A stretch of DNA of 64,000 nt from Roseibacillus persicicus (lineage in GTDB: Bacteria; Verrucomicrobiota; Verrucomicrobiia; Verrucomicrobiales; Akkermansiaceae): contig NZ_BMXI01000023.1 of assembly GCF_014651675.1 (NCBI RefSeq), positions 1-64,000 of the forward strand, given 5' to 3'. The translations under genes were made by a program, and so were the position numbers. The notes under the pieces are model-generated. The model made no database searches and was not told the DNA's origin. It saw only the letters and a program-made list of their open reading frames with translations. Within the stretch, counting starts at the first letter, position 1; the number at the start of each line of letters is the position of its first letter. Of the stretch, positions 40,265-42,751 are shown one piece after another.

Positions 40265-41308
40265 ATGAAAACCATCGCTCTCCTTCTACTCGCCTGCTCG
40301 ACAGCCTTTTCCCAAGGCCCACGTCCAGAACAATTGGAGGCTTCTCCCCAGGCCGTCGGAGAGGCCGGGCTCGTCTGGTATACCACTTGGGAAACCGCAC
40401 TCGCGGAGGCCAAGCGCTCCAACCGCCCCATTTTCTTCATGGCTGCGGCAGCGACCTGCAATGGCATTCCCGGGGTCTTCTGACCGGGCTACACCAAGAC
40501 GCAGAACAGTTTGTTCTCGCAAAAAGAGTTTATCGCCGCCAGCCGCCAGTTCGTCTGTGTCCGCCTCGAGTCCTACGAGTCCGAGGAACACCAGAAGATG
40601 GTGCGCAAATTCCTCGGAGGAAGCTTCGCCAATACCGCGTTCGCCATCCTCGCCCCCGATGGCGAAACTCAGCTTTCGCGCAGCGGACGGAGCCCCCATG
40701 TGCTGTTGGGTCGAAGAGGGCGCACTGAAGACGCGGCGCCCGCTGAGGTGATTCAGGAACTCACCCGAATCGCCGCGAACTATCAGCCTAAGGGAAATGC
40801 CTCAGAGGCGACCCTACCGGACTTCCATACAACCCGACAGGCCCTAAACGTAGCCGCCGGGGATCAACGCCTTCTCGTCCTGACCGTCGCCTCCGGAAGG
40901 TCGCTCCTGATGGCAAAGACCACCTTGCGCACGGTTCTCAATGATTCCGAACTCATCGGACGCTTCCATCACGACTTCGCGGAAAAAGAGTCAGCTCCGG
41001 AATGGACGAAACTTTTGGAAGGCGAAAAAGAGACCAGCGGATTCCTCGTGATAGCCCCGGATTCATTTGGCCTCAAAGGGAAAGTCATGGCGCAACTTCC
41101 GCTCACCGCCAGCGTGGACATACTCAAGAATACCCTCATTGCAAAGAACAAAATCTACTCCAACGAAACCGAGCGGACAAACTACAGCGAACACGTGCGC
41201 GAAGGGCGGCAGAAGAAGGTCTACTTCCCCAACGCGATGCCCTATGGCGAAGACCGCGATGGGGACGGCGTGATCGACAAGCGCGCGGAACGCGGCCCTC
41301 GTCGCTAG
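40265..41308 (+). CDS. Candidate selenoprotein: exported thioredoxin-fold protein, in-frame TGA as Sec73
   Basis: Read with TGA at 40481-40483 as selenocysteine this gives 347 residues; a stop there would leave 72. Signal peptide MKTIALLLLACSTAFS; then 'WETALAEAKRSNRPIFFMAA', typical of thioredoxin-like proteins, C65-x7-U73 (CNGIPGVF, U, PGYTKTQN) and continuing 'LFSQKEFIAASRQFVCVRLE'. The frame stays open for 275 more codons with coding-like composition to TAG. The TGA aligns with the TGA in 56174-57310. A SECIS-like hairpin lies at 40503-40517. The likely role is a periplasmic redox protein. The alternative, a pseudogene with one nonsense mutation, is disfavoured by the second homologous case. 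Coordinates given for the read-through product. Confidence 0.78.
40503..40517 (+). promoter_or_regulatory. SECIS-like hairpin downstream of TGA 40481
   Basis: AGAAC (40503-40507) pairs with GTTCT (40513-40517); the closing A-T at 40508/40512 can extend the stem to six pairs with loop GTT. The first loop G is 26 nt beyond the TGA, within the spacing known for bacterial SECIS elements, which need a G near the start of the apical loop. The stem has the same sequence as the hairpin at 56521-56538. Confidence 0.65.
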
Positions 41309-41311
41309 GAT

Positions 41312-41875
41312 CTACTCTGCTTCGCGACGCTGGGCGCCGGGCCCGACTTGGAAATCCGCTTTCAATTCGGCGAGTTTTGCATGCTCCTCAGCGAGACCGC
41401 TCAAGGTCAGGTGGCATTCGAAGGTGTCGTGGGCTCCTTCCTGGTAATAGACCCTCAAGGTGCGGCGAATGGCCTCAATCGTCATGCTGACAATTTGCCT
41501 CGGGGTGAGCTCAACTGTCTCGGGAACTTTCAAGTCGGCACAATCCAGTACTACCTCGATGGAATTTTCGGAACGAGTGACTTCCAGCGCCAACCCACAG
41601 ATGAGGAGCAAATTGACTTCTTCGACTTCGTATGTCGGATTGTTAGTAGGCAGGCGATGGGGCATCGCCACGCTCTTGACCAAGTCTTCCGGGAAGGCCC
41701 CCGAGAGAACAACCGGCCGATCCACCACTGCAGCCTGCACCAACTGCCCCTTCACCCCGTACTCACTGGCACTATCGGTATCGTGATACGAGACGGGCTG
41801 GAATACCCTCACCACCTCTTTGGTTACCCCGCTGACCGAGCCCAGCATCAGGAGCGAGAGGAATATGACTTTCAT
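41312..41875 (-). CDS. Hypothetical exported protein
   Basis: 187 residues, not recognised. Signal peptide MKVIFLSLLMLGSVSG, then a mixed alpha/beta body with 'VYYQEGAHDTFECHLTLSGL' and a charged C-terminus. Two cysteines (near LDCADL and FECHL) could form a disulfide in the periplasm. It faces the selenoprotein candidate (3-bp gap) and is divergent from the Hsp33 gene. The opposite strand stays open through this region, but that frame lacks protein-like character until the Hsp33 start. Confidence 0.62.
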   Translation of the reverse strand: MKVIFLSLLMLGSVSGVTKEVVRVFQPVSYHDTDSASEYGVKGQLVQAAVVDRPVVLSGAFPEDLVKSVAMPHRLPTNNPTYEVEEVNLLLICGLALEVTRSENSIEVVLDCADLKVPETVELTPRQIVSMTIEAIRRTLRVYYQEGAHDTFECHLTLSGLAEEHAKLAELKADFQVGPGAQRREAE

Positions 41876-41974
41876 GGTTTAAATTCTCTTCACAATCGAC
41901 CGAGAGAACCAGCTGAATCAACGTCTTCTATCTTGTTTCTTGACTCTACCAGCCCGTTTGGGTCCCTCTTGGAC

Positions 41975-42751
41975 ATGCCCATCGCGTCCGACCGTACCCG
42001 CGTCGAATCCATTTTCATCCGCCATCGCAACACCTTGATGGTGCGAGCCAATTTCACGGACATCTTCACCGATTATTACCTGCATCTCGCCGATAACAAT
42101 CTGCGTTATCCACCGGAGCTGGATCATAAGCTCAAGGAGCTCCTTGCCGTCCTCACGCTGCACTCTGTCGCCCGCCCGTGGTCGGAAGTGCACGCTTGGA
42201 CGGTCAATCTACGTGCCCCCAGAGTGAACTTCTTTGCCACGGCCTCATCCACTGGTGAAAATGTCACCGGTCGGGTCTTCACGGAAGATGTGCGCGAGCC
42301 GCCCCAGAACCTCCTTTACTCCCAAGTCAACGACACGAGTGCCGGAGGCGGACCGCGACGTTCCACCGTGGCGGTGGAAAACGAGAATCCTCTGGATTGG
42401 CTGAGCCACTACTACTCGCAGTCCGAGCAGCGTCCCGGGAAAGTCTTTGAGCTCCCCGATGAGAACTTTGTTCTGGTGGCCGCCCAACCCGATTACGACG
42501 AGGAATGGTTCGAGAGCCTGACCCCGGAAATGGTGGCGGCGTTCCCCGAGACCGAATCACTTTCACCCTTGGAAAATCGGGCCTTCCACTTTCACTGCGG
42601 CTGCACCCGCGAGCGCATCATGCCAGCCCTCGCAGTCTGGTCTGACAAGCTGGACGAACTTTTCCAAGGTGCGCAGCACGTCAAGGTCCAGTGCCCCCGT
42701 TGCGCGGCCAAGTATGAAATCACCCGCGAGGACTTTGCCTCAAACGACTAA
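41975..42751 (+). CDS. hslO: Hsp33-family redox-regulated chaperone
   Basis: 258 residues from ATG 41975. N-terminal 'IRHRNTLMVRANFTDIFTDY' and a C-terminal redox switch: CxC in FHFHCGCTRERI and CxxC in VQCPRCAAKYEI, the four cysteines that bind zinc when reduced and form disulfides under oxidation and unfolding stress. It holds unfolding proteins in the cytoplasm. The open frame extends upstream to 41348 but that part is antisense to an exported protein gene. Its stop overlaps the end of the convergent methyltransferase gene by four bases. Confidence 0.9.
   Translation: MPIASDRTRVESIFIRHRNTLMVRANFTDIFTDYYLHLADNNLRYPPELDHKLKELLAVLTLHSVARPWSEVHAWTVNLRAPRVNFFATASSTGENVTGRVFTEDVREPPQNLLYSQVNDTSAGGGPRRSTVAVENENPLDWLSHYYSQSEQRPGKVFELPDENFVLVAAQPDYDEEWFESLTPEMVAAFPETESLSPLENRAFHFHCGCTRERIMPALAVWSDKLDELFQGAQHVKVQCPRCAAKYEITREDFASND

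Follow-up and report, generated by a model that had tools for sequence, protein, structure and literature searches.

A reading frame on the forward strand of Roseibacillus persicicus contig NZ_BMXI01000023.1 raises the question of how an internal TGA is read. Within the 64,000-nucleotide stretch analysed here (the window), the frame at 40265-41308 (+) runs from an ATG at 40265 through 347 codons to a TAG stop at 41306-41308, interrupted once, by a TGA at codon 73 (40481-40483, +). The initial annotation had proposed that this codon is read as selenocysteine (Sec, U). Its description of the locus was borne out: the TGA is the only one in an otherwise open frame, the frame begins with a signal-peptide-like sequence (MKTIALLLLACSTAFSQ), and the flanks of the codon are thioredoxin-like, giving a C65-x7-U73 arrangement (CNGIPGVF-U-PGYTKTQN). 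The proposed read-through was likewise supported by conservation of the TGA, by the presence of Sec machinery, by a downstream RNA signal and by co-occurrence with selB. Together with coding signal on both sides of the TGA, these lines leave us highly confident that the gene encodes a 347-residue selenoprotein, predicted to be exported and to contain tandem thioredoxin folds, with UGA codon 73 decoded as Sec.

Conservation of codon 73

Homologues were collected by protein and profile searches over roughly 880 distinct genomes, with phyla other than the source phylum covered by one scan of genome contigs. The gene was found in 90 genomes, all of the class Verrucomicrobiia: 43 in the source organism's own family-rank group, 34 elsewhere in its order and 13 in another order. 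Codon 73 was TGA in every match that spanned the site in these 90 genomes; matches that did not span it were contig-edge fragments or generic thioredoxin proteins. Read at the level of bases, the codon was TGA in 77 of 77 distinct sequences and never TAA or TAG. No version with Cys, Ser or any other non-TGA codon at this position was found in the roughly 880 distinct genomes searched, so that the residue on which the initial annotation had wanted homologues compared is never Cys or Ser in the sampled family. Nor did homologues diverge beyond the TGA, an outcome that would have spoken against read-through; identity in the near subfamily was 49-60%. Because the TGA is kept at its exact position, together with an RNA signal, in 90 related genomes, it is very probably read as Sec.

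These data bear directly on the possibility that the TGA is a nonsense mutation in a pseudogene or a base-call error. A single genome could not have excluded an error, and we found nothing that supports either version. The same TGA occurs in 90 separately assembled genomes, which in effect excludes a sequencing error, and divergence among homologues is biased to third codon positions both before and after the TGA. We regard the probability of this explanation as negligible. Annotations of the genomes that carry it probably list the gene as truncated or broken.

The homologues form two subfamilies, named here UPGY and UPGK after the residues at the site, that are only about 33% identical to each other. 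A maximum-likelihood tree separated UPGY (67 rows) from UPGK (15 rows, including one from genome G020 of the source organism's own family) by a long joining branch. C65 (TGC, 40457-40459, +), U73, P74 and G75 are invariant in both subfamilies; C65 is the sole cysteine invariant across both, and C98 is nearly so. In the tree, the UPGK copy in G020 (L107/L143) clusters with genes from another order and may reflect either a transfer or an old paralogue. On contig 275 of genome G874, two UPGK-subfamily copies lie in tandem (L151/L160), both with the TGA. A search of a plasmid collection for the gene gave no match.

Several candidate Cys orthologues were considered and set aside. Those in G128, G041, G502, G688, G209 and G380, and L055 from Planctomycetota, were weak matches, mainly to the thioredoxin core. 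Those that were read, L055, L062, L063, L104 and L149, look like ordinary Trx_7/DsbH-like proteins outside the UPGY/UPGK family.

The same alignment addresses whether the UGA is a true stop, ending a 72-residue peptide ahead of a separate downstream gene that starts at an internal TTG or GTG. A TTG-initiated frame does exist at 40511. However, the PG codons immediately after the TGA are invariant, the predicted helix alpha-2 described below spans the junction, and in 77 sequences the codon was never exchanged for TAA or TAG. A true stop is thus highly unlikely, and read-through as Sec remains the preferred reading.

A comparison of 18 flanking loci revealed no conserved operon partner. The cluster that recurred most often was the gene's own pre-TGA part, and those ranking next occurred in at most five loci at varying distances. 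In the window, a 187-residue ORF without a Pfam match (41312-41875, -) is convergent with the selenoprotein gene, and a 467-residue frame (41348-42751, +) lies antisense to that ORF.

The candidate SECIS hairpin and the Sec machinery

The hairpin that the initial annotation had placed 20-34 nt after the TGA, with a loop G at +26, is present. It consists of AGAAC (40503-40507), the loop AGTTT (40508-40512) and GTTCT (40513-40517), with the G at 40509; the full candidate SECIS element, GC-AGAAC-AGUUU-GUUCU-c-GC, occupies 40501-40520 (+), and its loop carries G40509-U40510. Published rules for bacterial SECIS elements call for an apical loop of 3-9 nt, a stem of 4-16 bp, a distance of 16-37 nt from the UGA and a G at loop position 1 or 2, with G or U as the usual next base (PMC13188914). 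The window hairpin agrees on loop, stem, G and distance, with a 5-nt loop (AGUUU) that starts after 24 nt and a 5-bp stem. The same model sets a minimum free energy threshold of -7.5 kcal/mol or lower (PMC13188914); the hairpin gave -7.0 kcal/mol over 39 nt, just short of that value, and -9.4 over 60 nt, and relatives ranged from -3.8 to -16.

Such a hairpin by itself is weak evidence and not beyond chance. A hairpin of at least 4 bp with a loop G at an allowed distance accompanies 62% of the TGA triplets in the window, and for 23% its stability equals or exceeds that of the SECIS candidate. What exceeds chance is conservation, in the form of the shared TGA, an invariant loop GU with a covarying stem, and a dip in synonymous diversity. 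The apical loop read xGU in 77 of 77 distinct sequences. Synonymous diversity fell to 0.21 of expected at codons +5 to +12, the deepest dip in the gene, compared with 0.94 before the TGA, 0.90 at +13 to +40 and 0.95 beyond. The inner stem GAAC/GUUC is replaced by CAGG/CCUG in the UPGK subfamily, through compensatory pairs. In 18 segments hand-picked for diversity, 22 paired cells were doubly changed; shuffles gave 8.3 ± 1.9 such cells and slid controls 0-7. From the same 18 segments RNAalifold recovered the hairpin unaided, with compensatory changes in five of six pairs. The covariation count on a redundant set of 63 segments exceeded all 500 shuffles for most measures; RNAalifold on this full, highly similar set returned no structure. 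Scanning the window against Rfam gave no hits.

The source genome (5.28 Mb, 92 contigs, 97% complete) contains the machinery whose absence would have argued against Sec insertion. All four components named in the initial annotation were recovered: selA (459 bits), selB (324 bits), selD (374 bits) and a tRNA-Sec gene with anticodon TCA. The last lies on a contig other than that of the window, in which ARAGORN detected no tRNA. SelB and tRNA-Sec would be the factors that decode UGA73, directed by the hairpin, with its loop beginning 24 nt downstream of the UGA. The selD gene (L057, C13:136723-137652) carries an in-frame TGA of its own (SSCAGUASKL), a known Sec form. Directly 3' of selA (C21:40942-42222) lies a gene for a VPGU-type thioredoxin-like selenoprotein (LFQEVPGUGPC; L101, C21:42306-42689). 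Its relatives in G015 and G018, which have no full-score selB, carry Cys instead (VPGCAGC and VPGCLTC), so that the VPGU protein provides a natural Sec/Cys control within one clade.

Presence of the gene tracked that of selB in two samples that do not overlap. In the source organism's own family-rank group, full-score selB was found in 38 of 43 gene-bearing genomes and 25 of 102 others (p = 5e-13), and in the rest of the order in 26 of 34 and 21 of 125, respectively (p = 1e-10), both p-values being inflated by shared ancestry. The comparison covered the gene-bearing genomes of the source organism's own order. Thirteen of these showed no full-score selB. They are without exception draft assemblies; a partial selB is present in G079 and G613, but G521 and G587 have completeness ratings of 92-95%.

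A frame that stays open past a TGA would also be seen in a recoded genome, and the UGA might then be read as Trp, Gly or Cys through suppression or a changed genetic code. In the window, however, TGA is the ordinary stop for 9 of 51 long frames, and several copies of the selenoprotein gene themselves end in TGA. The link with selB and the conserved SECIS-like element also argue against this explanation, which we consider extremely improbable beside decoding as Sec.

Predicted fold and active site

The probable signal peptide (40265-40315, +) was judged by eye and coincides with low pLDDT at residues 1-16; homologues share the N-terminal pattern, followed by a conserved Q-GPRP. Two AlphaFold2 models (mean pLDDT 84-85) predicted two tandem thioredoxin folds for the presumably exported product. 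The first domain, at about residues 34-177 (40364-40795, +), carries the Sec and is of the Thioredoxin_7/DsbD-gamma/DsbH/AGR2 type; in VIA-align searches with the first model, residues 34-177 matched DsbD-gamma, DsbH and AGR2/3 at Z 10-11. The second domain, at about residues 181-301 (40805-41167, +), has no CxxC and is presumably not redox-active for that reason. Its residues 181-300 matched thioredoxins at Z of about 9 in the same searches. At the sequence level, the Thioredoxin_7 profile (PF13899) scored 19.9 bits, below the Pfam gathering score of 27, and the predicted fold nonetheless agrees with it; 23 of 24 family members matched this profile at E ≤ 0.1. A PDB sequence search with the family profile gave chance matches only. 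A C-terminal motif, EDRDGDGVID (residues 329-338; 41249-41278, +), shows little or no variation within the UPGY subfamily, is absent from UPGK, and resembles the DxDxDG loops that bind calcium.

The site reads F/W-U-P-G-Y/K where relatives have WCxxC, with Tyr or Lys at the +3 position that is normally Cys. In the second model, for which both subfamilies were used as input, helix alpha-2 comprised residues 74-84 with pLDDT of about 90 there; the first model gave this stretch lower confidence and omitted the early turns. A helix at 74-84 would make U73 its N-cap, as is the attacking cysteine of thioredoxins. This helix and a gap-free alignment C-terminal of U73 lead us to prefer U73 as the counterpart of the first, nucleophilic Cys of WCxxC. 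Counting from the preceding strand had suggested C65 for that position instead. With U73 as the predicted nucleophile, C65, eight residues upstream within an elongated active-site loop, probably resolves it by forming a selenenylsulfide. Such an active site would be unusual for a thioredoxin fold, with the likely resolving residue upstream (C-x7-U) instead of at +3.

Our best guess at function, drawn from the fold, the predicted export and the Sec residue, is reduction in the periplasm: the protein may act on a periplasmic substrate through thiol/disulfide or peroxide/sulfoxide chemistry, and its second domain may serve as a binding platform. Sec insertion could be real and yet the UGA act mainly as a selenium-dependent expression switch, with a residue that is not catalytic. 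The catalytic role of U73 is so far predicted, which leaves some room for such a switch. However, U73 lies at the canonical position of the nucleophile, close to an invariant Cys, and is never replaced across subfamilies of about 33% identity. We consider a switch very unlikely and favour a catalytic U73.

An apparently Sec-only family and its relation to known systems

The UPGY/UPGK proteins appear to form a new, apparently Sec-only family of the familiar thioredoxin-fold selenoprotein kind. No selenoprotein model in NCBIfam release 20 matched any of 24 family members at E below 0.001. Among the 119 prokaryotic selenoprotein families of a 2026 catalogue, none is listed with a C-x7-U or UPGY/UPGK thioredoxin-like site; the string that comes closest is UPGQ, from PrdC, an unrelated protein (PMC13188914). 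The open-licence literature yielded nothing on a UPGY/UPGK protein, which may have been named elsewhere.

One Sec site kept across two diverged subfamilies with no Cys form suggests, tentatively, that the family could be obligately Sec-containing, a reading to which we give slightly less than even weight. If so, the protein would perform chemistry that cysteine cannot do in the C-x7-U setting. Cys homologues exist for nearly all known selenoproteins, and homology-based finders rely on them, as is stated in a study that itself filters candidates by known homologues with Sec or Cys (PMC12013277). A Sec-only family without Cys homologues falls into the blind spot of these finders, and families of this type are nearly invisible to any method that requires such homologues. 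This suggests that more Sec-only families may lie hidden in Verrucomicrobiota and elsewhere. The present family could serve as a natural model in which to study why Cys never replaces Sec.

Of the known selenoproteins, the VPGUxxT family (NF041382/NF041383; OS_HP5) shares the Thioredoxin_7 type, Sec at the first CxxC-like position and an upstream PG. However, the UPGY protein scored 15.3 bits against NF041382 (cut-off 350), and its motif is IPGVFUPGY, not VPGUxxT. In the VPGU proteins encountered here the motif is VPGUxxC, and relatives that lack a full-score selB carry Cys forms of them, whereas the UPGY/UPGK family has C-x7-U, UPGY/K, a second thioredoxin domain and no Cys form that we could find. 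The Trx7/PDZ domain (seleno)protein (NF041199) likewise has a Thioredoxin_7-like domain with Sec, but by name and catalogue entry it combines CxxU with a PDZ domain, and the UPGY protein reached 13.4 bits against a cut-off of 300.

Among known structures, the DsbD C-terminal domain, DsbH and AGR2/AGR3 resemble the first domain in fold, with Z 9-11 over 105-124 residues, but they are Sec-free, 11-23% identical and match one thioredoxin domain only. Protein disulfide isomerases and other tandem-thioredoxin proteins (3wt2, 1a8l) share the tandem folds (Foldseek E 6e-5 to 1e-3). Their active-site motif differs, and the low overall TM-score of 0.2-0.3 points to a different arrangement of the two domains in the UPGY/UPGK family.
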